Below, piece after piece: positions 1 to 32,839 of a stretch of 32,839 bases of DNA. The notes beneath the pieces are model-generated. The model was not told the DNA's origin and did no database searches. It saw nothing but the letters and a program-made list of their open reading frames with translations. How positions within the stretch are numbered: the stretch's first letter is position 1; every line of letters starts with the position of its first letter. The position numbers were made by a program, and so were the translations under genes. Origin of the DNA: Saccoglossus kowalevskii (lineage: Eukaryota > Hemichordata > Enteropneusta > Harrimaniidae); contig NW_003138455.1 in the NCBI RefSeq assembly GCF_000003605.2, positions 1-32,839 on the forward strand, read 5' to 3'.

Positions 1-112
1 TCATTTCTCGTCTATCAGATTGTTATGCATTGCTTAATTATTTGCCGTGAATATTTGTTGGATTTCAACATGCGAAAAAAACATGTGCATAGTCGTAAAC
101 ACTGAAATTGTA

Positions 113-126
113 TTATGCCAGCATAA
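113..126. repeat. Inverted repeat ttatgc-ca-gcataa, B/D spacers only (representative)
   Basis: Perfect 6-bp arms around CA, 30 bp past the tRNA 3' end. It occurs on the trailer side of B and D copies and is absent from A and C copies, which read aataacggcagc there. It is a useful family marker. Confidence 0.55.
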
Positions 127-155
127 ATGACAGTTGTGCAAAATACTCAACAACA

Positions 156-237
156 AGGCAGCGGTGGGATACGAACCCACGCCATCGAAATGACTGGTGC
201 CTTAAACAAGCGCCTTTGACCGCTCGCCCACGCTACC
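156..237 (-). pseudogene. tRNA-Leu(AAG)-like, family B
   Basis: Family B reference. Compared with the intact copy at 3073-3154 it has discriminator U73, T-loop A58 to U, a U29-C41 mismatch in the anticodon stem, and C11 to G breaking the D stem. A73 is a major leucyl-tRNA synthetase identity element and A58 is near-universal, so a charged tRNA is unlikely. The anticodon triplet is still AAG. Confidence 0.75.
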
Positions 238-572
238 CTTAATTACAAGCAAAAACGACGCAATTACCCTGAAACACAAGCATTTCATGTGTGTATGGGT
301 ATTTACCGAGACGACTGAAGTGATATTTTTAACAATGCAAATACCAAAAATTCGAATACTATTTCCTGGGAATTGTTGACGCTGTAGATACTCACTAAAA
401 TCACGTTCACCGGGTTTCATTTCGTCATCTAATCAGATTGTATGAATTGCTTAGTTACTTGCCGTGAATATTTGTTGGATTTCAAAGTGCGACTAAAACA
501 TGTGCATAACCGTATACACAGAAATTGAATAACGGCAGCATGAATGACATTTGTGCAAAATACCGAACAACC

Positions 573-654
573 TGGCAGCGGTGGGATTCGAACCCACGCC
601 ATCGAAATGACTGGTGCCTTAAACCAGCGCCTTAGATCGCTCGGCCACGCTACC
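573..654 (-). tRNA. tRNA-Leu(AAG), G19 to A
   Basis: Family A copy identical to the consensus except that D-loop G19 is A, which weakens the G19-C56 tertiary pair. Other stems are intact and A73 is present. It may be less stable than its neighbours. Confidence 0.7.
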
Positions 655-978
655 CATAGTTACATTGCCAAAACGACGCAATTACCCTGAAACACAAGCA
701 TTTCATGTGTGTTTGGGTATTTACCGAGACGACTGAAGTGATATTTGTAACAATGCAATGCCAAAAATGCGAATACTATTTTCTGAGAATTTTGACGCTG
801 TGGTTACTCATTGAAATGTGTTCACCGGGTTTCATTTCATCATCTAATCAGATGTATGCATTGCTTAATTATTTGCCGTGAATATTTGTTGGATTTCAAC
901 ATGCGAAAGAAACATGTGCATAGTCGTAAACACTGAAATTGTATTATGCCAGCATAAATGACAGTTGTGCAAAATACA

Positions 979-1060
979 AGGCAGCGGTGGGATACGAACC
1001 CACGCCATCGAAATGACTGGTGCCTTAAACAAGCGCCTTTGACCGCTCGGCCACGCTACC
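979..1060 (-). pseudogene. tRNA-Leu(AAG)-like, family B
   Basis: Carries the three B lesions (U73, A58 to U, 29-41 mismatch) with a sound D stem. The trailer lost about 10 bp (aaaatacaagg), which accounts for the short 406-bp spacing. Confidence 0.75.
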
Positions 1061-1396
1061 CTTAATTACATTGCAAAAACGACGCAATTACCCTGAAACA
1101 CAAGCATTTCATGTGTGTTTTGGTATTTGCCTAGACGACTGAAGTGATATTTGTAACAATGCAAATGCCACAAATTCGAATACTATTTTCTGGGAATTGT
1201 TGACGCTGTAGATACTCACTAAAATGACGTTCACCGGGTTTCATTTCATCATCTAATCAGATTGTATGAATTGCTTAGTTACTTGCCATGAATATTTGTT
1301 GGATTTCAAAGTGCGACTAAAACATGTGCATAACCGTATACACAGAAATTGAATAACGGCAGCTTGAATGACAGTTGTGCAAAATACTTAACAACC

Positions 1397-1478
1397 TGGC
1401 AGCGGTGGGATTCGAACCCACACCATCGAAATGACTGGTGCCTTAAACCAGCGCCTTAGACCGCTCGGCCACGCTACC
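1397..1478 (-). tRNA. tRNA-Leu(AAG), C48 to U
   Basis: Consensus family A body with one change at position 48, the partner of G15. All stems pair. Likely functional. Confidence 0.82.
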
Positions 1479-1814
1479 CAAAATTACATTGCAAAAACGA
1501 CGCAATTACCCTGAAACACAAGCATTTCATGTGTGTTTGGGTATTTACCGAGACGACTGAAGTGATATTTGTAACAATGCAAATACCAAAAATTCGAATA
1601 CTATTTCCTGGGAATTGTTGACGCTGTAGATACTCACTAAAATGACGTTCACCGGGTTTCATTTCATCATCTAATCAGATTGTATGCATTGCTTAGTTAC
1701 TTGCCGTGAATATTTGTTGTATTTCAAAGTGCGACTAAAACATGTGCATAACCGTATACACAGAAATTGAATAACGGCAGCTTGAATGACAGTTGTGCAA
1801 AATACTGAACAACC

Positions 1815-1896
1815 TGGCAGCGGTGGGATTCGAACCCACGCCATCGAAATGACTGGTGCCTTAAACCAGCGCCTTAGACCACTCGGCCACGCTACC
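1815..1896 (-). tRNA. tRNA-Leu(AAG), C16 to U
   Basis: Family A body with a harmless D-loop change (GAGTGG). The spacer to its right has a 5-bp insertion (ttcgactggaatac) shared only with the spacer right of 5996-6077. Confidence 0.88.
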
Positions 1897-2237
1897 CATA
1901 ATTACATTTCAAAAACGACGAAATTACCCTGAAACACAAGCATTTCATGTGTGTTTTGGTATTTGCCGAGACGACTGAAGTGATATTTGTAACAATGCAA
2001 ATGCCACAAATTCGACTGGAATACTATTTTCTGGGAATTGTTGACGCTGTAGATACTCACTAAAATGACGTTCACCGGGTTTCATTTCATCATCTAATCA
2101 GATTGTATGCATTGCTTAGTTACTTGCCGTGAATATTTGTTGGATTTCAACGTGCGAAAGAAACATGTGCATTGTCGTAAACACTGAAATTGTATTATGC
2201 CTGCATAAATGACAGTTGTGCAAAATACCGAACAACC

Positions 2238-2319
2238 TGGCAGCGGTGGGATTCAAACCCACGCCATCGAAATGACTGGTGCATTAAACAAGCGTCTTTG
2301 ACCGCTCGGCCACGCCACC
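2238..2319 (-). pseudogene. tRNA-Leu-like, anticodon triplet AAT
   Basis: A73 is kept, but C56 is U, the anticodon stem has the B mismatch, G24 is A, A4 is G, and the anticodon position reads AAT (formally Ile). The combined lesions argue for a pseudogene, not a recoded tRNA. Confidence 0.75.
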
Positions 2320-2655
2320 CATAATTACATTGCAAAAACAACGCAATTACCCTGAAACACAAGCATTTCATGTGTGTTTTGGTATTTGCCGAGACGACTG
2401 ATGTGATATTTGTAATAATGCAAATGCCAAAAATGCGAATACTATTTTCTGAGAATTTTTGACGCCGTGGTTACTCATTAAAATGTGTTCGCCGGGTTTC
2501 ATTTCATCGTCTAATCAGATTGTTATGCATTGCTTAATTATTTGCCGTGAATATTTGTTGGATTTCAACATGCGAAAGAAACATGTGCATAGTCGTAAAC
2601 ACTGAAATTGTATTATGCCAGCATAAATGACAGTTGTGCAAAATACTCAACAACA

Positions 2656-2737
2656 AGGCAGCGGTGGGATACGAACCCACGCCATCGAAATGACTGGTGC
2701 CTAAAACCATCGCCTTAGACCGCTCGGCCACGCTACC
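2656..2737 (-). pseudogene. tRNA-Leu(UAG)-like mosaic
   Basis: The trailer side is B (U73, A58 to U) while the anticodon loop is UUUAGGC (anticodon UAG) and the D arm is sound. C27 to A breaks the first anticodon-stem pair. A recombinant between families. Confidence 0.7.
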
Positions 2738-3072
2738 CATAATTACTTTGCGAAAACGACGCAATAACCCTGAAACACAAGCATTTCATGCGTGTTTGGG
2801 TATTTACCGAGACGACTGAAGTGATATTTGTAACAATGCAAATGCCACAAATGCGAATACTATTTTCTGAGAATTTTTGACGCTGTGGTTACTCATTAAA
2901 ATGTGTTCACCGGGTTTCATTTCATCATCTAATCAGATTGTATGCATTGCTTAGTTACTTGCCGTGAATATTTGTTGGATTTCAAAGTGCGACTAAAACA
3001 TGTGCATAACCGTATACACAGAAATTGAATAACGGCAGCTTGAATGACAGTTGTGCAAAATACTGAACAACC

Positions 3073-3154
3073 TGGCAGCGGTGGGATTCGAACCCACGCC
3101 ATCGAAATGACTGGTGCCTTAAACCAGCGCCTTAGACCGCTCGGCCACGCTACC
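3073..3154 (-). tRNA. tRNA-Leu(AAG), family A consensus
   Basis: Reference copy. Acceptor GGTAGCG/CGCTGCC has all seven pairs (U3-G70 wobble); the D arm has GCC/GGC with A14, G18G19 and A21; the anticodon stem CTGGT/ACCAG encloses loop TTAAGGC with anticodon AAG; the variable arm is CAT-TTCG-ATG; the T arm GTGGG/CCCAC encloses TTCGAAT; the discriminator is A73. Length is 82 nt without CCA or intron. A34 would be edited to inosine to read CUU, CUC and CUA codons, as known for eukaryotic Leu-AAG. A and B boxes are perfect and a T4 stop follows after 12 nt. Seventeen other copies here are identical. The same gene is repeated on the same strand on both sides. Confidence 0.96.
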
Positions 3155-3490
3155 CATAATTACTTTGCAAAAACGACGCAATTACCCTGAAACTCAAGCA
3201 TTTCGTGTGTGTTTCGGTATTTACCGAGACGACTGAAGTGATATTTGTAATAATGCAAATGCCAGAAATGCGAATACTATTTCCTGGGAATTGTTGACGC
3301 TGTAGATACTCACTAAAATGACGTTCACCGGGTTTCATTTCATCATCTAATCAGATTGTATGCATTGCTTAGTTACTTGCCGTGAATATTTGTTGTATTT
3401 CAAAGTGCGACTAAAACATGTGCACAACCGTATACACAGAAATTGAATAACGACAGCTTGAATGACAGTTGTGCAAAACACTCAACAACC

Positions 3491-3572
3491 TGGCAGCGGT
3501 GGGATTCGAACCCACGCCATCGAAATGACTGGTGCCTTAAACCAGCGCCTTAGACCGCTCGGCCACGCTACC
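3491..3572 (-). tRNA. tRNA-Leu(AAG), exact consensus
   Basis: All 82 nt equal the copy at 3073-3154. The trailer has AGTGTTTTG in place of AGTATTTTG, still T4. Its leader has 'gggtatttacc', so inverted repeat 2 is shortened. Confidence 0.95.
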
Positions 3573-3891
3573 CATAATTACTTTGCAAAAACGACGCAAT
3601 TACCCTGAAACTCAAGCATTTCATGTGTGTTTGGGTATTTACCGAGACGACTGAAGTGATATTTGTAATAATGCAAATGCCACAAATGCGAATACTATTT
3701 TCTGAGAATTGTTGACGCTGTGGTTACTCATTAAAATGTGTTCACCGGGTTTCATTTCATCATCTAATCAGATTGTATGCATTGCTTAGTTACTTGCCGT
3801 GAATATTTGTTGGATTTCAAAGTGCGACTAAAACATGTGCATAACCGTATACACAGAAATTGAATAACGGCAGCTTGAATGACAGTTGTGC

Positions 3892-3895
3892 AAAA
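3892..3895 (-). terminator. Pol III T4 terminator (representative)
   Basis: On the tRNA strand, TTTT in the context TATTTTGC starts 12 nt after the discriminator, giving a short trailer. The same run follows nearly every copy. Four Ts is the minimum for Pol III termination in vertebrates; a further T4 (ATGTTTTAG) lies about 80 nt on and may act as backup. Confidence 0.65.
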
Positions 3896-3918
3896 TACTG
3901 AACAACCTGGCAGCGGTG

Positions 3919-3929
3919 GGATTCGAACC
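3919..3929 (-). promoter_or_regulatory. Internal Pol III B box (representative)
   Basis: GGTTCGAATCC, the classical TFIIIC-binding B box, covers tRNA positions 52-62. It is unchanged in A and intact C copies. B copies read GTATCC (A58 to T) and D copies read AATAC (C61 to A), so those families should bind TFIIIC less well. Confidence 0.9.
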
Positions 3930-3971
3930 CACGCCATCGAAATGACTGGTGCCTTAAACCAGCGCCTTAGA

Positions 3972-3982
3972 CCGCTCGGCCA
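3972..3982 (-). promoter_or_regulatory. Internal Pol III A box (representative)
   Basis: TGGCCGAGCGG matches the eukaryotic A-box consensus at tRNA positions 8-19. With the B box it makes a normal type 2 Pol III promoter. Several B copies change it to TGGGCGAGCGG, which also breaks the D stem. Confidence 0.9.
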
Positions 3983-4003
3983 CGCTACCCATAATTACTT
4001 TGC

Positions 4004-4008
4004 AAAAA
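4004..4008 (-). terminator. T5 run just upstream of the tRNA (representative)
   Basis: GTTTTTG lies 15-19 nt before the mature 5' end. It is upstream of the gene it flanks, so it could only stop Pol III arriving from the neighbouring unit. C copies have only T4 here (CTTGTTTTAG). The role is inferred. Confidence 0.35.
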
Positions 4009-4023
4009 CGACGCAATTACCCT

Positions 4024-4050
4024 GAAACACAAGCATTTCATGTGTGTTTC
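4024..4050. repeat. Inverted repeat 1: 8-bp arms, 11-nt loop (representative)
   Basis: gaaacaca and tgtgtttc are perfect reverse complements about 35-60 bp upstream of the tRNA. Units reading gaaactca lose one pair, and units reading tgtgtttg lose the terminal pair, so the element is polymorphic in the array. Confidence 0.6.
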
Positions 4051-4062
4051 GGTATTTACCGA
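4049..4062. repeat. Inverted repeat 2: tcggta-tt-taccga (representative)
   Basis: Six-base arms with a 2-base spacer, overlapping the right arm of inverted repeat 1 by two bases. Units with 'gggtatttaccgag' keep a shorter version. The near-continuous dyad suits a dimeric DNA-binding protein better than an RNA hairpin; this is inferred. Confidence 0.55.
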
Positions 4063-4087
4063 GACGACTGAAGTGATATTTGTAATA

Positions 4088-4095
4088 ATGCAAAT
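4088..4095 (-). promoter_or_regulatory. Octamer motif ATGCAAAT (representative)
   Basis: A perfect ATGCAAAT (ATTTGCAT on the tRNA strand) sits 99-106 bp upstream of the tRNA at 3908-3989. The same 8-mer is at this place in nearly all spacers of all families; exceptions include those near 12030 (gcatat), 23274, 26192 and 32037 (gcaaaa). Octamers of this sequence bind POU factors such as Oct-1 in snRNA and tRNA-Sec promoters. I see no clear PSE or TATA box, so function here is a hypothesis. Confidence 0.45.
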
Positions 4096-4325
4096 GCCAG
4101 AAATGCGAATACTATTTTCTGAGAATTGTTGACGCTGTAGATACTCACTAAAATGACGTTCACCGGGTTTCATTTCATCATCTAATCAGATTGTATGCAT
4201 TGCTTAGTTACTTGCCGTGAATATTTGTTGGATTTCAAAGTGCGACTAAAACATGTGCATAACCGTATACACAGAAATTGAATAACGGCAGCTTGAATGA
4301 CAGTTGTGCAAAATACTGAACAACC

Positions 4326-4407
4326 TGGCAGCGGTGGGATTCGAACCCACGCCATCGAAATGACTGGTGCCTTAAACCAGCGCCTTAGACCGCTCGGCCA
4401 CGCTACC
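4326..4407 (-). tRNA. tRNA-Leu(AAG), exact consensus
   Basis: Identical body. The leader matches that of 3073-3154, three units earlier (offset 1,253 bp), including the 'gaaactca' break in inverted repeat 1. Confidence 0.95.
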
Positions 4408-4743
4408 CATAATTACTTTGCAAAAACGACGCAATTACCCTGAAACTCAAGCATTTCGTGTGTGTTTCGGTATTTACCGAGACGACTGAAGTGATATTTG
4501 TAATAATGCAAATGCCAGAAATGCGAATACTATTTCCTGGGAATTGTTGACGCTGTAGATACTCACTAAAATGACGTTCACCGGGTTTCATTTCATCATC
4601 TAATCAGATTGTATGCATTGCTTAGTTACTTGCCGTGAATATTTGTTGTATTTCAAAGTGCGACTAAAACATGTGCACAACCGTATACACAGAAATTGAA
4701 TAACGACAGCTTGAATGACAGTTGTGCAAAATACTCAACAACC

Positions 4744-4825
4744 TGGCAGCGGTGGGATTCGAACCCACGCCATCGAAATGACTGGTGCCTTAAACCAGCG
4801 CCTTAGACCGCTCGGCCACGCTACC
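4744..4825 (-). tRNA. tRNA-Leu(AAG), exact consensus
   Basis: Identical body. The trailer flank repeats that of 3491-3572 (gtgcacaacc, cgacagc), while the leader repeats that of 3908-3989, so the unit joins two earlier ones. Confidence 0.95.
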
Positions 4826-5161
4826 CATAATTACTTTGCAAAAACGACGCAATTACCCTGAAACACAAGCATTTCATGTGTGTTTCGGTATTTACCGAGA
4901 CGACTGAAGTGATATTTGTAATAATGCAAATGCCAGAAATGCGAATACTATTTTCTGAGAATTGTTGACGCTGTAGATACTCACTAAAATGACGTTCACC
5001 GAGTTTCATTTCATCATCTAATCAGATTGTATGCATTGCTTAGTTACTTGCCGTGAATATTTGTTGGATTTCAAAGTGCGACTAAAACATGTGCATAACC
5101 GTATACACAGAAATTGAATAACGGCAGCTTGAATGACAGTTGTGCAAAATACTGAACAACC

Positions 5162-5243
5162 TGGCAGCGGTGGGATTCGAACCCACGCCATCGAAATGAC
5201 TGGTGCCTTAAACCAGCGCCTTAGACCGCTCGGCCACGCTACC
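5162..5243 (-). tRNA. tRNA-Leu(AAG), exact consensus
   Basis: Identical body and last of six successive perfect copies. Its leader switches to the form with 'aatttttgacgctgtgg' that precedes B copies. Confidence 0.95.
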
Positions 5244-5578
5244 CATAATTACTTTGCAAAAACGACGCAATTACCCTGAAACTCAAGCATTTCGTGTGTG
5301 TTTCGGTATTTACCGAGACGACTGAAGTGATATTTGTAACAATGCAAATGCCAAAAATGCGAATACTATTTTCTGAGAATTTTTGACGCTGTGGTTACTC
5401 ATTAAAATGTGTTCACCGGGTTTCATTTCATCATCTAATCAAATTGTATGCATTGCTTAATTATTTGCCGTGAATATTTGTTGGATTTCAACATGCGAAA
5501 GAAACATGTGCATTGTCGTAAACACTGAAATTGTATTATGCCAGCATAAATGACAGTTGTGCAAAATACTCAACAACA

Positions 5579-5660
5579 AGGCAGCGGTGGGATACGAACC
5601 CACGCCATCGAAATGACTGGTGCAATCAACAAGCGCCTTTGACCGCTCGCCCACGCTACC
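5579..5660 (-). pseudogene. tRNA-Leu-like, family B, broken anticodon loop
   Basis: B lesions plus C11 to G, and an altered loop UGAUUGC that loses U33 and the leucine anticodon. Not decodable as a tRNA. Confidence 0.85.
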
Positions 5661-5995
5661 CATAATTGCAAGCAAAAACGACGCAATTACCCTGAAACAC
5701 AAGCATTTCATGTGTGTATGGGTATTTACCGAGACGACTGAAGTGATATTTTTAACAATGCAAATACCAAAAATTCGAATACTATTTCCTGGGAATTGTT
5801 GACGCTGTAGATACTCACTAAAATGACGTTCACCGGGTTTCATTTCATCATCTAATCAGATTGTATGCATTGCTTAGTTACTTGCCGTGAATATTTGTTG
5901 TATTTCAAAGTGCGACTAAAACATGTGCATAACCGTATACACAGAAATTGAATAACGGCAGCTTGAATGACAGTTGTGCAAAATACTGAACAACC

Positions 5996-6077
5996 TGGCA
6001 GCGGTGGGATTCGAACCCACGCCATCGAAATGACTGGTGCCTTAAACCAGCGCCTTAGACCACTCGGCCACGCTACC
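5996..6077 (-). tRNA. tRNA-Leu(AAG), C16 to U
   Basis: Same body as 1815-1896 and the same 5-bp spacer insertion to its right, ten units away, so the two are block duplicates. Confidence 0.88.
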
Positions 6078-6418
6078 CATAATTACATTTCAAAAACGAC
6101 GCAATTACCCTGAAACACAAGCATTTCATGTGTGTTTTGGTATTTGCCGAGACGACTGAAGTGATATTTGTAACAATGCAAATGCCACAAATTCGACTGG
6201 AATACTATTTTCTGGGAATTGTTGACGCTGTAGATACTCACTAAAATGACGTTCACCGGGTTTCATTTCATCATCTAATCAGATTGTATACATTGCTTAG
6301 TTACTTGCCGTGAATATTTGTTGGATTTCAAAGTGCGACTAAAACATGTGCATAACCGTATACACAGAAATTGAATAACGGCAGCTTGAATGACAGTTGT
6401 GCAAAATACTGAACAACC

Positions 6419-6499
6419 TGCAGCGGTGGGATTCGAACCCACGCCATCGAAATGACTGGTGCCTTAAACCAGCGCCTTAGACCGCTCGGCCACGCTACC
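6419..6499 (-). pseudogene. tRNA-Leu(AAG) with acceptor deletion
   Basis: One of the two G bases at the acceptor end is missing (cctgcagcgg), so C72 is lost and the end is shifted. The rest is consensus. A single deletion in a run of two could also be a sequencing error. Confidence 0.6.
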
Positions 6500-6835
6500 C
6501 ATAATTACATTGCAAAAACGACGCAATTACCCTGAAACACAAGCATTTCATGTGTGTTTCGGTATTTACCGAGACGACTGAAGTGATATTTGTAATAATG
6601 CAAATGCCAGAAATGCGAATACTATTTTCTGAGAATTGTTGACGCTGTAGATACTCACTAAAATGACGTTCACCGGGTTTCATTTCATCATCTAATCAGA
6701 TTGTATGCATTGCTTAGTTACTTGCCGTGAATATTTGTTGGATTTCAACGTGCGACTAAATCATGTGCATAACCGTATACACAGAAATTGAATAACGGCA
6801 GCTTGAATGACCGTTGTGCAAAATACTGAACAACC

Positions 6836-6917
6836 TGGCAGCGGTGGGATTTGAACCCACGCCATCGAAATGACTGGTGCCTTAAACGAGCGCCTTAGAC
6901 CGCTCGGCCACGCTACC
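6836..6917 (-). pseudogene. tRNA-Leu(AAG) with anticodon-stem mismatch
   Basis: G29 to C opposes C41. The T loop reads TTCAAAT, which is normal. Otherwise sound, so this is a weakened gene rather than a clear wreck. Confidence 0.5.
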
Positions 6918-7252
6918 CATAATTACATTTCAAAAACGACGCAATTACCCTGAAACACAAGCATTTCATGTGTGTTTGGGTATTTACCGAGACGACTGAA
7001 GTGATATTTGTAACAATGCAAATGCCAAAAATGCGAATACTATTTTCTGAGAATTTTTGACGCTGTGGTTACTCATTAAAATGTGTTCACCGGGTTTCAT
7101 TTCATCATCTAATCAAATTGTATGCATTGCTTAATTATTTGCCGTGAATATTTGTTGGATTTCAACATGCGAAAGAAACATGTGCATTGTCGTAAACACT
7201 GAAATTGTATTATGCCAGCATAAATGACAGTTGTGCAAAATACTGAACAACC

Positions 7253-7334
7253 TGGCAGCGGTGGGATTCGAACCCACGCCATCGAAATGACTGGTGCCTT
7301 AAACCAGCGCCTTTGACCGCTAGCCCACGCTACC
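7253..7334 (-). pseudogene. A/B mosaic tRNA-Leu(AAG)-like
   Basis: T arm, variable arm and anticodon arm are A, but the D-arm half is B with C11 to G and G13 to U. The switch lies between the anticodon stem and the D stem. Confidence 0.75.
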
Positions 7335-7669
7335 CTTAATTACAAGCAAAAACGACGCAATTACCCTGAAACACAAGCATTTCATGTGTGTATGGGTATT
7401 TACCGAGACGACTGAAGTGATATTTTTAACAATGCAAAAACCAAAAATTCGAATACTATTTCCGGGGAAGTGTTGATGCTGTAGATACTCACTAAAATGA
7501 CGTTCACCGGGTTTCATTTCATCATCTAATCAGATTGTATGCATTGCTTAGTTACTTGCCGTGAATATTTGTTGGATTTCAAAGTGCGACTAAAACATGT
7601 GCATAACCGTATACACAGAAATTGAATAACGGCAGCTTGAATGACAGTTGTGCAAAATACTGAACAACC

Positions 7670-7751
7670 TGGTAGCGGTGGGATTCGAACCCACGCCATC
7701 GAAATGACTGGTGCCTTAAACCAGCGCCTTAGACCGCTCGGCCACGCTACC
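7670..7751 (-). tRNA. tRNA-Leu(AAG) with U3-A70 acceptor pair
   Basis: G70 to A turns the consensus U3-G70 wobble into a Watson-Crick pair, so the acceptor stem is fully paired. The base before G1 is C instead of G. The rest is consensus and likely functional. Confidence 0.88.
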
Positions 7752-8086
7752 GATAATTACTTTGCAAAAACGACGCAATTACCCTGAAACACAAGCATTT
7801 CATGTGTGTTTTGCTATTTGCCGAGACGACTGATGTGATATTTGTAATAATGCAAATGCCAAAAATGCGAATACTATTTTCTGAGAATTTTTGACACTGT
7901 GGTTACTCATTAAAATGTGTTCACCGGGTTTCATTTCATCATCTAATCAGATTGTATGAATTGCTTAGTTACTTGCCGTGAATATTTGTTGGATTTCAAA
8001 GTGCGACTAAAACATGTGCATAACCGTATACACAGAAATTGAATAACGGCAGCTTGAATGACAGTTGTGCAAAATACTGAACAACC

Positions 8087-8168
8087 TGGTAGCGGTGGGA
8101 TTCGAACCCACGCCATCGAAATGACTGGTGCCTTAAACCAGCGCCTTAGACCGCTCGGCCACGCTACC
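8087..8168 (-). tRNA. tRNA-Leu(AAG) with U3-A70 acceptor pair
   Basis: Second copy of the U3-A70 variant, one unit from the first, with the same -1 C. The shared pair of changes indicates monomer duplication. Confidence 0.88.
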
Positions 8169-10174: not shown

Positions 10175-10256
10175 TGGCAGCGGTGGGATTCGAACCCACG
10201 CCATCGAAATGACTGGTGCCTTAAACCAGCGCCTTAGACCGCTCGGCCACGCTACC
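10175..10256 (-). tRNA. tRNA-Leu(AAG), exact consensus
   Basis: Identical body isolated among B copies. The leader has a small change (attaatttgc) and the trailer reads AGTACTTTG, so the usual T4 is interrupted. Termination may rely on the later T4. Confidence 0.92.
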
Positions 10257-11007: not shown

Positions 11008-11089
11008 AGGCAGCGGTGGGATACGAACCCACGCCATCGAAATGACTGGTGCAATCAACAAGCGTCTTTGACCGCTCGGCCACGCCACC
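11008..11089 (-). pseudogene. tRNA-Leu-like, family B, broken anticodon loop
   Basis: The same loop lesion as 5579-5660 (gcaatcaac), with G24 to A and A4 to G. U33 and the anticodon are lost. Confidence 0.85.
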
Positions 11090-12262: not shown

Positions 12263-12344
12263 TGGCAGCGGTGGTATTCGAACCCACGCCAGCGAAATGA
12301 CTGGTGCCTTAATCAAGCGCCTTTGACTGCTCGGCCACGCTACC
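12263..12344 (-). pseudogene. tRNA-Leu(AAG)-like, family D
   Basis: Family D reference: A73 is kept, C61 to A gives a G53-A61 mismatch, the variable stem has one mismatch (CAT/CTG), and the B-type 29-41 mismatch is present. This copy adds a T31 to A change. Relatives are at 17270, 26425 and 32268. Confidence 0.75.
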
Positions 12345-13516: not shown

Positions 13517-13598
13517 TGGCAGCGGTGGGATTCGAACCCACGCCATCGAAATGACTGGTGCCTTAAACAAGCGCCTTTGACCGCTCGGCCACGCCACC
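13517..13598 (-). pseudogene. A/B mosaic tRNA-Leu(AAG)-like
   Basis: The 3' half is A (A73, sound T arm) and the 5' half is B (29-41 mismatch, A4 to G). It is the reciprocal arrangement of 9340-9421. Confidence 0.7.
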
Positions 13599-14351: not shown

Positions 14352-14433
14352 TGGCAGCGGTGGGATTCGAACCCACGCCATCGAAATGACTGGTGCCTTA
14401 ATCCAGCGCCTTAGACCGCTCGGCCACGCTACC
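14352..14433 (-). tRNA. tRNA-Leu(AAG), U31 to A
   Basis: The base closing the anticodon loop is A31 opposite A39, a mismatch. All else is consensus. Function is uncertain. Confidence 0.6.
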
Positions 14434-17677: not shown

Positions 17678-17759
17678 TGGCAGCGGTGGGATTCGAACCC
17701 ACGCCATCGAAATGACTGGTGCCTAAAACCAGCGCCTTAGACCGCTCGGCCACGCTACC
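17678..17759 (-). tRNA. tRNA-Leu(UAG), intact family C
   Basis: Differs from the A consensus only at position 34: loop TTTAGGC gives anticodon UAG for CUA/CUN leucine codons. All stems pair and A73 is present. The trailer lacks 9 bp downstream of the T4 run (gaatgcaaaatac). The leader is the 'actttactaaaac' type. The best UAG candidate in the window. Confidence 0.9.
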
Positions 17760-18095: not shown

Positions 18096-18177
18096 TGGCA
18101 GCGGTGGGATTCGAACCCACGCCATCGAAATGACTGGTGCCTAAAACCAGCGCCTTAGACCGCTCAGCCACGCTACC
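18096..18177 (-). tRNA. tRNA-Leu(UAG), C12 to U
   Basis: UAG anticodon in a sound stem; C12 to U makes a U12-G23 wobble. The A box reads TGGCTGAGCGG, still acceptable. Likely functional. Confidence 0.82.
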
Positions 18178-20183: not shown

Positions 20184-20265
20184 TGGCAGCGGTGGGATTC
20201 GAACCCACGCCATCGAAATGACTGGTGCCTTAAACCAGCGCCTTAGACCGCTCGGCCACGCTACC
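20184..20265 (-). tRNA. tRNA-Leu(AAG), exact consensus
   Basis: Identical body. Flank marks (gtatactcag, aatttctttgc) recur at 28931-29012 and 29766-29847. Confidence 0.95.
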
Positions 20266-20600
20266 CATAATTTCTTTGCAAAAACGACGCAATTACCCTG
20301 AAACTCAAGCATTTCGTGTGTGTTTCGGTATTTACCGAGACGACTGAAGTGATATTTGTAATAATGCAAATGCCAAAAATGCGAATACTATTTTCTGAGA
20401 ATTTTTGACACTGTGGTTACTCATTAAAATGTGTTCACCGGGTGTCATTTCATCATCTAATCAGATTGTATGAATTGCTTAGTTACTTGCCGTGAAAATT
20501 TGTTGGATTTCAAAGTGCGACTAAAACATGTGGATAACCGTATACACAGAAATTGAATAACGGCAGCTTGAATGACAGTTGTGCAAAATACTGAACAACC

Positions 20601-20682
20601 TGGCAGCAGTGGGATTCGAACCCACGCCATCGAAATGACTGGTGCCTTAAACCAGCGCCTTAGACCGCTCGGCCACGCTACC
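20601..20682 (-). tRNA. tRNA-Leu(AAG), G7-U66
   Basis: C66 to U gives a wobble at the base of the acceptor stem; otherwise consensus. First of three successive copies with this mark. Confidence 0.85.
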
Positions 20683-21018
20683 CATAATTACTTTGTAAAA
20701 ACGACGCAATTACCCTGAAACTCAAGCATTTCGTGTGTGTTTCGGTATTTACCGAGACGACTGAAGTGATATTTGTAATAATGCAAATGCCAGAAATGCG
20801 AATACTATTTTCTGAGAATTGTTGACGCTGTAGATACTCACTAAAATGACGTTCACCAGGTTTCATTTCATCATCTAATCAGATTGTATGCATTGCTTAG
20901 TTACTTGCCGTGAATATTTGTTGGATTTCAAAGTGCGACTAAAACATGTGCATAACCGTATACACAGAAATTGAATAACGGCAGCTTGAATGACAGTTGT
21001 GCAAAATACTGAACAACC

Positions 21019-21100
21019 TGGCAGCAGTGGGATTCGAACCCACGCCATCGAAATGACTGGTGCCTTAAACCAGCGCCTTAGACCGCTCGGCCACGCTACC
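21019..21100 (-). tRNA. tRNA-Leu(AAG), G7-U66
   Basis: Second copy of the triplet, 418 bp on, with the same 'tttgtaaaaacg' leader. The T5 run is kept. Confidence 0.85.
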
Positions 21101-24756: not shown

Positions 24757-24838
24757 TGGCAGCGGTGGGATTCGAACCCACGCCATCGAAATGACTGGTA
24801 CCTTAAACCAGCGCCTTAGACCGCTCGGCCACGCTACC
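24757..24838 (-). tRNA. tRNA-Leu(AAG), C38 to U
   Basis: Second copy of the C38-to-U block, with marks 'cataatctaatc', 'gcgacaaaaac' and 'cacataaattg' on its trailer side. Confidence 0.83.
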
Positions 24839-25174
24839 CATAATTACTTTGCAAAAACGACGCAATTACCCTGAAACTCAAGCATTTCGTGTGTGTTTCG
24901 GTATTTACCGAGACGACTGAAGTGATATTTGTAATAATGCAAATGCCAAAAATGCGAATACTATTTTCTGAGAATTTTTGACGCTGTGGTTACTCATTAA
25001 AATGTGTTCGCCGGGTTTCATTTCATAGTCTAATCAGATTGTTTTGCATTGCTTAATTATTTGCCGTGAATATTTGTTGGATTTCAACATGCGAAAGAAA
25101 CATGTGCATAGTCATAAACACTGAAATTGTATTATGCCAGCATAAATGACAGTTGTGCAAAATACTCAACAACA

Positions 25175-25256
25175 AGGCAGCGGTGGGATACGAACCCACG
25201 CCGTCGAAATGACTGGTGCCTTAAACCAGCGCCTTAGACCGCTCGGCCACGCTACC
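25175..25256 (-). pseudogene. B/A mosaic tRNA-Leu(AAG)-like
   Basis: U73 and A58 to U with intact anticodon and D arms, like 9340-9421, plus a variable-stem change (ccgtcg). Confidence 0.65.
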
Positions 25257-25590
25257 CATAATTACTTTGTAAAAACGACGCAATTACCCTGAAACTCAAG
25301 CATTTCGTGTGTGTTTCGGTATTTACCGAGACGACTGAAGTGATATTTGTAATAATGCAAATGCCAAAAATGCGAATACTATTTTCTGAAATTTTTGACA
25401 CTGTGGATACTCATTAAAATGTGTTCACCGGGTTTCATTTCATCATCTAATCAGATTGTATGAATTTCTTAGTTACTTGCCGTGAATATTTGTTGGATTT
25501 CAAAGTGCGACTAAAACATGTGCATAACCGTATACACAGAAATTGAATAACGGCAGCTTGAATGACAGTTGTGCAAAATACTGAACAACC

Positions 25591-25671
25591 TGGCAGCGGT
25601 GGGATTCGAACCCACGCCATCGAAATGACTGGTGCCTTAACCAGCACCTTAGACCGCTCGGCCACGCTACC
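25591..25671 (-). pseudogene. tRNA-Leu with shortened anticodon loop
   Basis: One A-T pair is missing from the loop (ccttaacc), so the stem and 7-base loop cannot both form; position 26-27 also changes (cagcacc). The deletion is in a run of three and could be an error. Confidence 0.6.
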
Positions 25672-26007
25672 CATAATTACTTTGCAAAAACGACGCAATT
25701 ACCCTGAAACTCAAGCATTTCGTGTGTGTTTCGATATTTACCGAGACGACTGAAGTGATATTTGTAATAATGCAAATGCCAAAAATGCGAATACTATTTT
25801 CTGAGAATTTTTGACGCTGTGGTTACTCATTAAAATGTGTTCGCCGGGTTTCATTTCATCGTCTAATCAGATTGTTATGCATTGCTTAATTATTTGTCGT
25901 GAATATTTGTTGGATTTCAACATGCGAAAGAAACATGTGCATAGTCATAAACACTGAAATTGTATTATGCCAGCATAAATGACAGTTGTGCAAAATACTC
26001 AACAACA

Positions 26008-26089
26008 AGGCAGCGGTGGGATACGAACCCACGCCATCGAAATGACTGGTGCCTTAAACAAGCGCCTTTTACCGCTCGGCCACGCCACC
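26008..26089 (-). pseudogene. tRNA-Leu(AAG)-like, family B
   Basis: B lesions and A4 to G; the D loop reads GGTAAAA. Confidence 0.77.
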
Positions 26090-26424
26090 CATAATTACAT
26101 TTCAAAAACGACGCAATTACCCTGAAACACAAGCATTTCGTGTGTGTTTCGGTATTTACCGAGACGACTGAAGTGATATTTGTAACAATGCAAAAGCCAA
26201 AAATGAGAATACTATTTTCTGGGAATTTTTGACGCTGTAGTTACTCATTAAAATGTGTTCACCGGGTTTCAATTCGTCATCTAATCAGATTGTATGCACT
26301 GCTTAATTATTTGCCGTGAATATTTGTTGGATTTCAACATGCGACATAAACATGTGCATAGTCGTAAACACTGAAATTGTATTATGCCAGCATAAATGAC
26401 TGTTCTGCAAAATACTAAACAACA

Positions 26425-26506
26425 TGGCAGCGGTGGTATTCGAACCCACGCCAGCGAAATGACTGGTGCCTTAAACAAGCGCCTTTGACCGCTCGGCCAC
26501 GCTACC
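26425..26506 (-). pseudogene. tRNA-Leu(AAG)-like, family D
   Basis: Body identical to 17270-17351. The trailer spacer has 'atgcgacataaac'. Confidence 0.75.
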
Positions 26507-26842
26507 CATAATAACATTGCAAAAACGACACAATTACCCGGAAACACAAGCATTTCATGTGTGTTTGGGTATTTACCGAGACGACTGAAGTGATATTTGT
26601 AATAATGCAAATGCCAAAAATGCGAATACTATTTTCTGAGAATTTTTGACGCTGTGGTTACTCATTAAAATGTGTTAGCCGGGTTTCATTTCATCGTCTA
26701 ATCAGATTGTTATGCATTGCTTAATTATTTGCCGTGAATATTTGTTGGATTTCAACATGCGAAAGAAACATGTGCATAGTCGTAAACACTGAAATTGTAT
26801 TATGCCAGCATAAATGACAGTTGTGCAAAATACTCAACAACA

Positions 26843-26924
26843 AGGCAGCGGTGGGATACGAACCCACGCCATCGAAATGACTGGTGCCTTAAACAAGAGC
26901 CTTTGACCTCTCGGCCACGCCACC
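26843..26924 (-). pseudogene. tRNA-Leu(AAG)-like, family B
   Basis: Shares the 'acaagagcc...gacctctcgg' D-arm variant with 8505-8586 but keeps a sound T stem, so it is closer to the parent of that pair. Confidence 0.78.
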
Positions 26925-27259
26925 CATAATTACATTTCTAAAACGACGCAATTACCCTGAAACACAAGCATTTCGTGTGTGTTTCGGTATTTACCGAGAC
27001 GACTGAAGTGATATTTGTAATAATGCAAATGCCAAAAATGGGAATACTATTTTCTGAGAATTTTTGACACTGTGGTTACTCATTAAAATGTGTTCACCGG
27101 GTTTCATTTCATAATCTAATCAGATTGTATGAATTGCTTAGTTACTTGCCGTGAATATTTGTTGGATTTCAAAGTGCGACAAAATCATGTGCATAGCCGT
27201 ATACACAGAAATTGAATTACGGCAGCTTGAATGACAGTTGTGCAAAATACTAAACAACA

Positions 27260-27341
27260 TGGCAGCGGTGGTATTCGAACCCACGCCATCGAAATAACTG
27301 GTGCCTAAAACCAGCGTCTTAAACCGCTCGGCCACGCTACC
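27260..27341 (-). pseudogene. tRNA-Leu(UAG)-like, D/C mosaic
   Basis: C61 to A, G24 to A breaking the D stem, and variable-stem change. UAG anticodon. The trailer-side spacer changes from the 'ataatctaatc' block to C type near 27184. Confidence 0.78.
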
Positions 27342-27676
27342 CGTAATTACTTTACTAAAACAAGGCAATTACCCTGAAACCAAAGCATTTCATGTGTGTT
27401 TCGGTATTTACCGAGACGACTGAAGTGATATTTGTAATAATGCAAATGCCAAAAATGCGAATACTATTTTCTGAGAATTTTTGACACTGTGGTTACTCAT
27501 TAAAATGTGTTCACCGGGTTTCATTTCATAATCTAATCAGATTGTATGAATTGCTTAGTTACTTGCCGTGAATATTTGTTGGATTTCAAAGTGCGACAAA
27601 AACATGTGCATAACCGTATACACATAAATTGAATAACGGCAGCTTGAATGACAGTTGTGCAAAATACTGAACAACC

Positions 27677-27758
27677 TGGCAGCGGTGGGATTCGAACCCA
27701 CGCCATCGAAATGACTGGTACCTTAAACCAGCGCCTTAGACCGCTCGGCCACGCTACC
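27677..27758 (-). tRNA. tRNA-Leu(AAG), C38 to U
   Basis: Third copy of the C38-to-U block, body identical to 8922-9003. Confidence 0.83.
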
Positions 27759-28094
27759 CATAATTACTTTGCAAAAACGACGCAATTACCCTGAAACTCA
27801 AGCATTTCGTGTGTGTTTCGGTATTTACCGAGACGACTGAAGTGATATTTGTAATAATGCAAATGCCAAAAATGCGAATACTATTTTCTGAGAATTTTTG
27901 ACGCTGTGGTTACTCATTAAAATGTGTTCGCCGGGTTTCATTTCATCGTCTAATCAGATTGTTATGCATTGCTTAATTATTTGCCGTGAATATTTGTTGG
28001 ATTTCAACATGCGAAAGAAACATGTGCATAGTCATAAACACTGAAATTGTATTATGCCAGCATAAATGACAGTTGTGCAAAATACTCAACAACA

Positions 28095-28176
28095 AGGCAG
28101 CGGTGGGATACGAACCCACGCCATCGAAATGACTGGTGCCTTAAACCAGCGCCTTAGACCGCTCGGCCACGCTACC
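28095..28176 (-). pseudogene. B/A mosaic tRNA-Leu(AAG)-like
   Basis: Body identical to 9340-9421: U73 and A58 to U on an otherwise sound tRNA. Confidence 0.65.
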
Positions 28177-28511
28177 CATAATTACTTTGCAAAAACAACG
28201 CAATTACCCTGAAACACAAGCATTTCGTGTGTGTTTCGGTATTTACCGAGACGACTGAAGTGATATTTGTAATAATGCAAATGCCAAAAATGCGAATACT
28301 ATTTTCTGAGAATTTTTGACACTGTGGTTACTCATTAAAATGTGTTCACCGGGTTTCATTTCATCATCTAATCAGATTGTATGAATTGCTTAGTTACTTG
28401 CCGTGAATATTTGTTGGATTTCAAAGTGCGACTAAAACATGTGGATAACCGTATACACATAAATTGAATAACGGCAGCTTGAATGACAGTTGTGCAAAAT
28501 ACTGAACAACC

Positions 28512-28593
28512 TGGCAGCGGTGGGATTCGAACCCACGCCATCGAAATGACTGGTGCCTTAAACCAGCGCCTTAGACCGCTCGGCCACGCTACC
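28512..28593 (-). tRNA. tRNA-Leu(AAG), exact consensus
   Basis: Identical body. First of five perfect copies in a row; the trailer spacer has 'gtggataacc' and 'cacataaattg'. Confidence 0.95.
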
Positions 28594-28930
28594 CATAATT
28601 ACTTTGCAAAAACGACGCAATTACCCTGAAACACAAGCATTTCGTGTGTGTTTCGGTATTTACCGAGACGACTGAGGTGATATTTGTAATAATGCAAATG
28701 CCAGAAATGCGAATACTATTTTTCTGAGAATTGTTGACGCTGTAGATACTCACTAAAATGACGTTCACCGGGTTTCATTTCATCATCTAATCAGATTGTA
28801 TGCATTGCTTAGTTACTTGCCGTGAATATTTGTTGTATTTCAAAGTGCGACTAAAACATGTGCACAACCGTATACTCAGAAATTGAATAACGGCAGCTTG
28901 AATGACAGTTGTGCAAAATACTGAACAACT

Positions 28931-29012
28931 TGGCAGCGGTGGGATTCGAACCCACGCCATCGAAATGACTGGTGCCTTAAACCAGCGCCTTAGACCGCTC
29001 GGCCACGCTACC
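28931..29012 (-). tRNA. tRNA-Leu(AAG), exact consensus
   Basis: Identical body. One trailer change (caacttgg). It is the 8,747-bp counterpart of 20184-20265. Confidence 0.95.
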
Positions 29013-29347
29013 CATAATTTCTTTGCAAAAACGACGCAATTACCCTGAAACTCAAGCATTTCGTGTGTGTTTCGGTATTTACCGAGACGACTGAAGTGAT
29101 ATTTGTAATAATGCAAATGCCAAAAATGCGAATACTATTTTCTGAGAATTTTTGACACTGTGGTTACTCATTAAAATGTGTTCACCGGGTGTCATTTCAT
29201 CATCTAATCAGATTGTATGAATTGCTTAGTTACTTGCCGTGAAAATTTGTTGGATTTCAAAGTGCGACTAAAACATGTGGATAACCGTATACACAGAAAT
29301 TGAATAACGGCAGCTTGAATGACAGTTGTGCAAAATACTGAACAACC

Positions 29348-29429
29348 TGGCAGCGGTGGGATTCGAACCCACGCCATCGAAATGACTGGTGCCTTAAACC
29401 AGCGCCTTAGACCGCTCGGCCACGCTACC
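29348..29429 (-). tRNA. tRNA-Leu(AAG), exact consensus
   Basis: Identical body. Counterpart of 20601-20682, which instead has G7-U66, so that mark arose or was spread after the block duplicated. Confidence 0.95.
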
Positions 29430-29765
29430 CATAATTACTTTGCAAAAACGACGCAATTACCCTGAAACTCAAGCATTTCGTGTGTGTTTCGGTATTTACC
29501 GAGACGACTGAAGTGATATTTGTAATAATGCAAATGCCAGAAATGCGAATACTATTTTCTGAGAATTGTTGACGCTGTAGATACTCACTAAAATGACGTT
29601 CACCGGGTTTCATTTCATCATCTAATCAGATTGTATGCATTGCTTAGTTACTTGCCGTGAATATTTGTTGTATTTCAAAGTGCGACTAAAACATGTGCAC
29701 AACCGTATACTCAGAAATTGAATAACGGCAGCTTGAATGACAGTTGTGCAAAATACTGAACAACC

Positions 29766-29847
29766 TGGCAGCGGTGGGATTCGAACCCACGCCATCGAAA
29801 TGACTGGTGCCTTAAACCAGCGCCTTAGACCGCTCGGCCACGCTACC
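29766..29847 (-). tRNA. tRNA-Leu(AAG), exact consensus
   Basis: Identical body. Flanks copy those of 28931-29012 two units away (gtatactcag, aatttctttgc). Confidence 0.95.
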
Positions 29848-30182
29848 CATAATTTCTTTGCAAAAACGACGCAATTACCCTGAAACTCAAGCATTTCATG
29901 TGTGTTTGGGTATTTACCGAGACGACTGAAGTGATATTTGTAATAATGCAAATGCCACAAATGCGAATACTATTTTCTGAGAATTTTTGACGCTGTGGTT
30001 ACTCATTAAAATGTGTTCACCGGGTTTCATTTCATCATCTAATCAGATTGTATGCATTGCTTAGTTACTTGCCGTGAATATTTGTTGGATTTCAAAGTGC
30101 GACTAAAACATGTGCATAACCGTATACACAGAAATTGAATAACGGCAGCTTGAATGACAGTTGTGCAAAATACTGAACAACC

Positions 30183-30264
30183 TGGCAGCGGTGGGATTCG
30201 AACCCACGCCATCGAAATGACTGGTGCCTTAAACCAGCGCCTTAGACCGCTCGGCCACGCTACC
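30183..30264 (-). tRNA. tRNA-Leu(AAG), exact consensus
   Basis: Identical body; last perfect copy in the window. Leader carries 'tttgcgaaaacg' and so has T4 in place of T5. Confidence 0.95.
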
Positions 30265-30600
30265 CATAATTACTTTGCGAAAACGACGCAATTAACCTGA
30301 AACTCAAGCATTTCGTGTGTGTTTCGGTATTTACCGAGACGACTGAAGTGATATTTGTAATAATGCAAATGCCAAAAATGCGAATACTATTTTCTGAGAA
30401 TTTTTGACGCTGTGGTTACTCATTAAAATGTGTTCACCGGGTTTCATTTCATCATCTAATCAGATTGTTACGCATTGCTTAATTATTTGCCGTGAATATT
30501 TGTTGTATTTCAACATGCGAAAGAAACCTGTGCATAGTCGCAAACACTGAAATTGTATTATGCCAGCATAAATGACAGTTGTGCAAAATACTCAACAACA

Positions 30601-30682
30601 AGGCAGCGGTGGGACACGAACCCACGCAATCGAAATGACTGTTGCCTTAAACAAGCGCCTTTGACCGCTCGGCCACGCCACC
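30601..30682 (-). pseudogene. tRNA-Leu(AAG)-like, family B
   Basis: U73, T-loop TTCGTGT, two anticodon-stem mismatches and A4 to G. The left spacer marks (ttacgcattgc, gaaacctgtg, gtcgcaaac) match those left of 21854. Confidence 0.85.
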
Positions 30683-31017
30683 CATAATTACATTTCAAAA
30701 ACGACGCAATTACCCTGAAACACAAGCATTTCATGTGTGTTTTGGTATTTGCCGAGACGACTGAAGTGATATTTTTAACAATGCAAATACCAAAAATTCG
30801 AATACTATTTCCTGGGAATTGTTGACGCTGTAGATACTCACTAAAATGACGTTCACCGGGTTTCATTTCATCATCTAATCAGATTGTATGCATTGCTTAG
30901 TTACTTGCCGTGAATATTTGTTGTATTTCAAAGTGCGACTAAACATGTGCATAACCGTATACACAGAAATTGAATAACGGCAGCTTGAATGACAGTTGTG
31001 CAAAATACTGAACAACC

Positions 31018-31099
31018 TGGCAGCGGTGGGATTCGAACCCACGCCATCAAAATGACTGGTGCCTTAAACCAGCGCCTTAGACCGCTCGGCCACGCTACC
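31018..31099 (-). tRNA. tRNA-Leu(AAG), variable loop TTTG
   Basis: One change in the variable-arm loop; all pairs and the identity base A73 are kept. Likely functional. Confidence 0.88.
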
Positions 31100-31434
31100 C
31101 ATAATTTCTTTGCAAAAACGACGCAATTACCCTGAAACTCAAGCATTTCGTGTGTGTTTCGGTATTTACCGAGACGACTGAAGTGATATTTGTAATAATG
31201 CAAATGCCAAAAATGCGAATACTATTTTCTGAGAATTTTTGACACTGTGGTTACTCATTAAAATGTGTTCACCGGGTTTCATTTCATAATCTAATCAGAT
31301 TGTATGAATTGCTTAGTTACTTGCCGTGAATATTTGTTGGATTTCAAAGTGCGACAAAAACATGTGCATAACCGTATACACATAAATTGAATAACGGCAG
31401 CTTGAATGACAGTTGTGCAAAATACTGAACAACC

Positions 31435-31516
31435 TGGCAGCGGTGGGATTCGAACCCACGCCATCGAAATGACTGGTACCTTAAATCAGCGCCTTAGACC
31501 GCTCAGCCACGCTACC
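31435..31516 (-). pseudogene. tRNA-Leu(AAG), C38-to-U block with stem mismatch
   Basis: Fourth copy of the C38-to-U block, with an added A30-C40 mismatch (aaatcagcg) and a U12-G23 wobble. Confidence 0.55.
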
Positions 31517-31852
31517 CATAATTACTTTGCAAAAACGACGCAATTACCCTGAAACTCAAGCATTTCGTGTGTGTTTCGGTATTTACCGAGACGACTGAAG
31601 TGATATTTGTAATAATGCAAAGGCCAAAAATGCGAATACTATTTTCTGAGAATTTTTGACGCTGTGGTTACTCATTAAAATGTGTTCGCCGGGTTTCATT
31701 TCATAGTCTAATCAGATTGTTATGCATTGCTTAATTATTTGCCGTGAATATTTGTTGGATTTCAACATGCGAAAGAAACATGTGCATAGTCATAAACACT
31801 GAAATTGTATTATGCCAGCATAAATGACAGTTGTGCAAAATACTCAACAACA

Positions 31853-31934
31853 AGGCAGCGGTGGGATACGAACACACGCCATCGAAATGACTGGTGCCTT
31901 AAACCAGCGCCTTAGACCGCTCGGCCACGCTACC
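31853..31934 (-). pseudogene. B/A mosaic tRNA-Leu(AAG)-like
   Basis: As 9340-9421, plus a T-stem change (gaacacacg). Confidence 0.72.
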
Positions 31935-32267
31935 CATAATTACTTTGCAAAAACGACGCAATTACCCTGAAACTCAAGCATTTCGTGTGTGTTTCGGTAT
32001 TTACCGAGACGACTGAAGTGATATTTGTAATAATGCAAAAGCCAAAAATGCGAATACTATTTCTGGGAATTTTTGACGCTGTAGTTACTCATTAAATGTG
32101 TTCACCATGTTTCATTTCATCATCTAATCAGATTGTATGCACTGCTTAATTATTTGCCGTGAATATTTGTTGGATTTCAACATGCGAAATAAACATGTGC
32201 ATAGTCGTAAACACTGAAATTGTATTATGCCAGCATAAATGACTGTTCTGCAAAATACTAAACAACA

Positions 32268-32349
32268 TGGCAGCGGTGGTATTCGAACCCACGCCAGCGA
32301 AATGACTGGTGCCTTAAACAAGCGCCTTTGACCGCTCGGCCACGCTACC
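32268..32349 (-). pseudogene. tRNA-Leu(AAG)-like, family D
   Basis: Body identical to 17270-17351, and opens the block that repeats 17,126 onward. Confidence 0.75.
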
Positions 32350-32684
32350 CATAATAACATTGCAAAAACGACACAATTACCCGGAAACACAAGCATTTCA
32401 TGTGTGTTTGGGTATTTACCGAGACGACTGAAGTGATATTTGTAATAATGCAAATGCCGAAAATGCGAATACTATTTTCTGAGAATTTTTGACTCTGTGG
32501 TTACTCATTAAAATGTGTTCACCGGGTTTCATTTCATCATCTAATCAGATTGTATGCATTGCTTAGTTACTTGCCGTGAATATTTGTTTTATTTTAAAGT
32601 GCGACTAAAACATGTGCATAGCCGTATGCACAGAAATTGAATTACGGCAGCTTGAATGACAGTTGTGCAAAATACTAAACAACA

Positions 32685-32766
32685 TGGCAGCGGTGGGATT
32701 CGAACCCACGCCATCGAAATGACTGGTGCCTAAAACCAACGCCTTAGACCGCTCGGCCACGCTACC
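32685..32766 (-). tRNA. tRNA-Leu(UAG), C27 to U
   Basis: Counterpart of the intact UAG copy at 17678-17759, with one change giving a U27-G43 wobble. It keeps the trailer bases deleted in that copy. Likely functional; its leader is cut by the window end. Confidence 0.82.
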
Positions 32767-32839
32767 CATAACTACTTTACTAAAACAAGGCAATTACCCA
32801 GGAACAAAAGCATTTCATGTGTATTTCGGTATTTACCAA

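Follow-up and report, generated by a model that had tools for sequence, protein, structure and literature searches.

A tandem array of 417-bp units carrying intact and damaged tRNA-Leu genes in Saccoglossus kowalevskii

Introduction

When a tandem repeat carries a transfer RNA (tRNA) gene in every unit, is it a gene family, a satellite DNA or something in between? The question is raised by contig NW_003138455.1 of the hemichordate Saccoglossus kowalevskii (RefSeq assembly GCF_000003605.2), of which we analysed positions 1 to 32,839 of the forward strand, hereafter the window. This whole stretch is occupied by repeats of a unit that contains a tRNA-Leu gene or what is left of one. An initial annotation had described it as a same-strand array that runs off both ends, had called the monomer a complete leucine tRNA gene and had proposed tRNA dosage, TFIIIC or insulator sites, or selfish expansion as its reason to exist. 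We favour, with a probability of about 0.7, an RNA polymerase III (Pol III) gene array organised like 5S ribosomal DNA (rDNA), in which the gene is tRNA-Leu and the copies are in part working and in part decayed.

A single array of tRNA-Leu units

With Tandem Repeats Finder (TRF), the window gave one row only: a single array from 1 to 32837 with a period of 417 bp, 78.7 copies and 92% matches. A BLASTN search of the window's minus strand, with the gene as query, delimited 79 units with tRNA-Leu genes or gene relics. On both strands together ARAGORN found 78 tRNAs, all of them on the minus strand and 74 assigned to Leu, the unit that it missed being the one at 12263-12344. The gathering score of the Rfam tRNA family RF00005 was reached in 71 of the 79 units, again all minus, and a 22-nt stretch of the gene, searched with at most 3 mismatches, matched 78 times on that strand alone and never in 100 shuffles. 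The array begins and finishes in the middle of a unit and so continues beyond both window ends. The layout first proposed, including its test by TRF, is thereby confirmed.

The 79 same-strand units stand head to tail, as in tandem tRNA gene arrays of the Entamoeba and Hydractinia kind, and 32.8 kb of 417-bp units also amount to the long array and short monomer of a satellite. The kilobase unit with several tRNA genes that marks a human-type tRNA variable number tandem repeat (VNTR), or macrosatellite, was not found: here the unit is of 417 bp and holds one gene.

The 78 start-to-start distances between units have a median of 417 bp, and since all of them fall between 403 and 423 bp the array contains no large insertion such as a transposon. 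A higher-order repeat was likewise rejected, as mean unit identity stays within 0.91-0.93 at every lag from 1 to 39, none of which is favoured. Protein coding was rejected too, with just three open reading frames of at least 110 amino acids, the longest of 135, although the period is divisible by three. Matches to mascRNA (RF01684) in the first 8000 bases scored below the gathering score and overlie the tRNA, and were set aside as cross-hits; at the gathering threshold this family has none across the whole window. Exact gene and spacer patterns had 0 matches in viral and prokaryotic contig collections, and one array unit had none in plasmid and phage collections, results that say little about relatives.

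The consensus gene and its Pol III signals

The consensus gene is an intronless tRNA of 82 nt, which we take to be similar to animal tRNA-Leu(AAG). Standard pairs alone account for the acceptor (7 bp), D, anticodon and T stems, and also for a 3-bp variable-arm stem, CAT/ATG, that encloses TTCG. The A box, TGGCCGAGCGG, is present in 61/79 units and the B box, GGTTCGAATCC, in 45/79, the other 34 being off consensus. Downstream, a TTTT run starts at 12 nt after the gene in 75 of the 79 units and at 5 nt in one. In the alignment, the anticodon is AAG in 67 units, TAG in 9, ATT in 2 and AAT in 1.

Three units lack any TTTT within 30 nt past the gene, namely u45 (14352-14433), u47 (13517-13598) and u55 (10175-10256), the usual terminator being interrupted in each.

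Intact and damaged copies

We called a copy strictly intact when it had no indel, standard pairing in all listed stem positions, A73, the consensus B box, a Leu anticodon and the bases T8, A14, G18 and G19. This test was passed by 34 of the 79 copies (43%), 31 with AAG and three with TAG. As to whether the genes may be functional, this count of 34 stands beside the 71 copies at or over the Rfam gathering score. The idea of a complete gene as monomer holds for the consensus and for these 34 copies, and not for every monomer. Failures overlap, with a gap scored as a broken pair: they concern the B box (34), the anticodon stem (27), loss of A73 (18), the T stem (11), the D stem (10), the variable stem (9), an indel (8), the acceptor stem (7) and a non-Leu anticodon (3).

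Much of this damage is shared. Within the group of 19 units with the A58T change, 17 also have A73T, 14 an anticodon-stem G-to-T change that causes a mismatch, and 17 fall within one sequence cluster of 18. Position A58 sits in the B box and A73 is a leucine identity base, so transcription and charging of these units are both expected to be poor. Among eight sequence clusters, intact units make up 32 of the 44 in the largest and two of five in another, with 0/30 elsewhere. Intact and damaged units are mixed along the array and cluster only slightly, with the same state in 47 of 78 neighbours (permutation p 0.047).

Two further observations concern these classes. The ATT anticodon, an anticodon-loop change, occurs in two distant units, u53 (11008-11089) and u66 (5579-5660), both on the A58T background and damaged elsewhere too. 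Counted downstream from the start of the gene, the stretch at about 110-180 nt is among the most variable of the spacer, and its haplotypes are largely split between the canonical and A58T classes.

Constraint on the gene relative to the spacer

Pairs of units differ less in the gene (pairwise diversity 0.055) than in the spacer (0.084). Substitutions from the consensus come to 2.53 per 82 bp in the gene and to 2.73-7.30 in 254 spacer windows of gene length that nowhere touch the gene, none of which (0/254) lies at or below the gene's value. That the spacer should be as similar between units as the gene, as first described, is thus only roughly right, both measures putting the gene lower.

With a linked resampling, in which spacer differences were dealt onto the gene with their sharing pattern and insertions were left out, 7.7 strictly intact copies were expected among the 77 whole units against 34 observed; the observed number was reached in 0.37% of 3000 trials, the largest value being 42. 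When substitutions only were considered, 36 of the 77 units were intact against a mean of 6.1 (p 0.002), of 7.4 once the most variable part of the spacer was excluded (p 0.006) and of 10.6 when the ten windows of lowest variability were used (p 0.004), each in 1500 trials. The gene's own substitutions fall on harmless positions slightly more often than chance predicts (28.2 expected, p 0.02). Alleles with at least 11 copies number 4 in the 82 sites of the gene and 45 in the 335 of the spacer (p 0.052), and the comparison of common with rare alleles (at most 3 copies) between gene and spacer gave p 0.006, linkage being ignored. Allele counts within intact units, being circular, were left aside. 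Given that it departs from the consensus less than any of these spacer windows and that resampled spacer variation seldom leaves as many intact copies, the gene appears to be under constraint, even though individual copies decay.

As to the kinds of change, alleles found in one or two units across the whole window include 64 transitions among 162 low-frequency changes, so the usual transition excess is absent. CpG is not depleted, with observed/expected ratios of 1.06 in the gene and 1.12 in the spacer.

Turnover of units

Whole units share a mean identity of 92.2% over all pairs and of 92.7% between neighbours, and the 79 units hold 52 distinct gene sequences. Spacers are alike between units, as seen from this identity, from the decay of linkage disequilibrium and from the recurrence of blocks. 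Linkage was computed for 47 common variable sites: r2 is 0.57 for pairs less than 10 bp apart, 0.14 at 100-150 bp and 0.04 from 200 bp upwards, and all four combinations are seen in 98-100% of the site pairs at least 100 bp apart. Linkage that fades within about 100-150 bp points to short exchanges inside units, as by gene conversion. On a larger scale, we found 8 runs of at least three consecutive unit pairs at 97.5% identity or more, whereas 500 shuffled orders gave 0.33 on average and never more than 3 (two of the block pairs are given in Table 1). Such recurring blocks are the pattern that unequal crossing-over of several units would leave. To judge by the letters, both processes, gene conversion and unequal crossing-over, probably take part in the exchange.

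A second leucine anticodon

The TAG anticodon derives from AAG by a change at anticodon position 34; three of the nine units that have it are otherwise intact. These nine units bear six different spacer haplotypes, which suggests that exchange moves the new anticodon among units, and TAG is linked once to the A58T/A73T end (u73). Recognition by eukaryotic leucyl-tRNA synthetase is generally considered independent of the anticodon, so a TAG copy could still carry leucine and decode CUA. One may tentatively imagine the array as a nursery for tRNA isoacceptors, an idea that we regard as unlikely; if it were true, one locus would supply two leucine isoacceptors, with a dead subfamily growing beside them as raw material.

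Table 1. Positions in the window of the array, of selected tRNA-Leu copies and of recurring blocks
Feature	Position	Strand	Basis
Tandem array of the 417-bp monomer, 79 tRNA-Leu units	1..32839	minus	TRF, BLASTN, ARAGORN
Strictly intact tRNA-Leu(AAG), u61, top Rfam score (59.1 bits)	7670..7751	minus	Rfam, strict test
Strictly intact copy, u60, equal top score (59.1 bits)	8087..8168	minus	Rfam, strict test
Strictly intact tRNA-Leu, TAG, u37	17678..17759	minus	ARAGORN, Rfam, strict test
Strictly intact tRNA-Leu, TAG, u36	18096..18177	minus	ARAGORN, Rfam, strict test
Strictly intact tRNA-Leu, TAG, u01	32685..32766	minus	ARAGORN, Rfam, strict test
Example of the damaged subfamily, u17: A58T, A73T, one anticodon-stem pair broken; Rfam 40.4 bits	26008..26089	minus	
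Genes of u31 to u29, partner block of u08-u10	20184..21100	minus	
Genes of u10 to u08, three-unit block, mean identity 99.04% to u29-u31	28931..29847	minus	
Genes of u20 to u18, partner block of u11-u13	24757..25671	minus	
Genes of u13 to u11, three-unit block, mean identity 98.96% to u18-u20	27677..28593	minus	

How the array may be maintained

In the explanation that we favour, each 417-bp unit would be self-contained: its promoter, made of the A and B boxes, lies within the tRNA, the 82-bp body has no intron and includes a variable-arm stem, and most units have a T4 terminator 12 nt downstream. Units would turn over by unequal crossing-over of several units at once and by short gene conversion between them. 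Selection may retain a working subset while being unable to purge all copies, and the subfamilies with a damaged promoter or a damaged fold would ride along and spread. The intact copies would then be transcribed and the damaged ones silent, and the array would presumably persist through its supply of tRNA-Leu.

Several observations weigh against this explanation. The minimum-energy fold, computed on the consensus alone, has the acceptor, variable-arm and T stems and no clean cloverleaf in the D/anticodon region. As many as 45 of the 79 copies fail the strict test, and the A58T change in the B box is common to units spread along the array, which would not be expected under strong selection. 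Single-copy alleles are equally dense in the gene (22 in 82 sites) and the spacer (90 in 335), while those with 2-3 copies reach a higher density in the gene (24, against 39 in the spacer; p 0.002), so that selection on single copies must be weak. Among 417 circular windows, those overlapping the gene included, the gene ranks only 10th lowest in pairwise diversity and 13th lowest for common alleles. Moreover, the gene is GC-rich, and the resampling tests take no account of base composition or mutation bias. A reading that fits both sets of results is that new mutations enter freely and harmful ones seldom spread, the A58T family being a clear exception.

The main rival is a satellite that has captured a tRNA gene and that expands and turns over for its own sake, its tRNA output being irrelevant; it differs from the favoured explanation in degree. 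The failed strict tests, the spread of the 19 A58T copies, the equal density of single-copy alleles and the flat identity without higher-order repeat all speak for it, and it nevertheless appears improbable to us, as the gene lies below each of the 254 spacer windows in differences from the consensus and is intact more often than resampling gives. A monomer without gene-like constraint is thus not what these windows describe, whereas the allele counts point the other way. Selfish expansion in its pure form, as raised in the initial annotation, is made less likely by a gene more constrained than its spacer; the structural reading given there, an array of single-isotype origin that lies between a gene cluster and a satellite, was right. 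We hold equally doubtful that the whole array is kept for a high dosage of tRNA-Leu, for example in oocytes or early embryos, as has been reported for the tandem tRNA genes of Xenopus. Having 34 strictly intact copies in 33 kb agrees with dosage, which overlaps with the favoured explanation and does not exclude it, but they are just 43% of the units, and damaged subfamilies have spread; dosage, another of the original proposals, fits the intact part only and not the rest.

Three other explanations fare worse. Arrays of this type are hard to assemble, and an artefact could have multiplied a small cluster; this is very improbable, since the units differ by about 8% on average and their 52 gene sequences make the copies distinguishable. 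It also seems very improbable that the array serves as repeated TFIIIC/insulator or boundary sites. The consensus B box of 45 units would suit such a function, and the human tRNA VNTR binds CTCF and was proposed, in the portion of that paper that treats it, as a boundary element (PMC4041453). The departure of 34/79 B boxes from the consensus nonetheless weakens this idea, which had been part of the initial annotation, and in a crude scan of the consensus a CTCF core motif matched at best 8 of 12 positions. Least probable of all is a satellite derived from a short interspersed element (SINE), with the tRNA-like part as a SINE head turned tandem. Excerpts of one paper describe SINE-derived satellites in scaled reptiles and tRNA-like tandem repeats in newt and frogs (PMC10702118), but here the consensus gene is complete with A73 and the TTTT stands at +12 in 75/79 units. 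The consensus has no A-rich or simple-repeat tail, its longest A run being 5 with no second TRF period, and the head is no degenerate tRNA, the consensus being complete and 34/79 copies strictly intact.

Relation to known arrays of Pol III genes

This array, or a tRNA-Leu satellite by name, was not found in the open-licence literature, among the matches listed. Work on Schistosoma, Echinococcus and Dada transposons, considered for possible parallels, was not retained among the nearest cases. The tandem repeats PolIII/TAN of newt (about 360 nt) and OAX of Xenopus are alike in carrying a tRNA-like or tRNA-derived segment; in the sections that describe them the tRNA part is tRNA-like or derived, whereas the consensus here contains a full tRNA gene (PMC10702118). 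The human 1q23.3 tRNA VNTR is also a large tandem repeat in which every unit holds tRNA genes, with 9-43 units per allele, and differs by its GC-rich unit of 7.3 kb, its 98% unit identity, its CTCF binding and a share of tRNA genes below 6% of the unit, as far as the relevant part of that report goes (PMC4041453).

Other relatives in organisation are tandem arrays of tRNA genes. Bermudez-Santana et al. 2010 define homogeneous tRNA clusters and, in the pages concerned, knew tRNA tandem repeats from Entamoeba only; they place 89% of the tRNA loci of Nematostella (>17,000) in clusters, mostly as heterogeneous pairs (PMC2888827). Two Hydractinia species have roughly evenly spaced tandem tRNA arrays with tens or hundreds of copies and similar spacers, for all 20 amino acids. 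The authors, in their section on these arrays, state that tRNA tandem arrays exist in Nematostella, call such arrays unusual outside Entamoeba and one mammalian example, and make no mention there of a split into intact and damaged copies like that of the present array (PMC11067881; the mammalian case is PMC4041453). In Entamoeba, tandem units of gene and spacer include single-tRNA ones, [H GTG], [G GCC], [G TCC] and [R TCT], and concerted evolution was proposed. The passages on these arrays also show differences: Leu(AAG) lies there in mixed units, short tandem repeats separate the genes in E. histolytica and E. dispar, and clear evidence for nonfunctional pseudogene copies was not seen by the authors; in the present array 45/79 fail the strict test (PMC2652664). 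A single-isotype array as something apart from known cases, the view taken at first, cannot be upheld in the light of Entamoeba and Hydractinia.

The window offers a clear sequence record of a tRNA gene array between gene family and satellite. It brings side by side intact and promoter-damaged subfamilies, short exchanges within a 417-bp unit and an anticodon change on several backgrounds. If the intact copies are transcribed and the damaged ones silent, the array would be a natural series of promoter and fold variants at one locus.

In its organisation the array resembles 5S rDNA, which also has one short Pol III gene and a spacer per unit, in tandem, homogenised by recombination and accompanied by variant and pseudogene units; the difference is that the gene here is a tRNA. 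Since single-tRNA arrays of Entamoeba and the arrays of Hydractinia are published, this kind of array is already in print, and the one in S. kowalevskii adds one more case to a known, if uncommon, organisation of tRNA genes.

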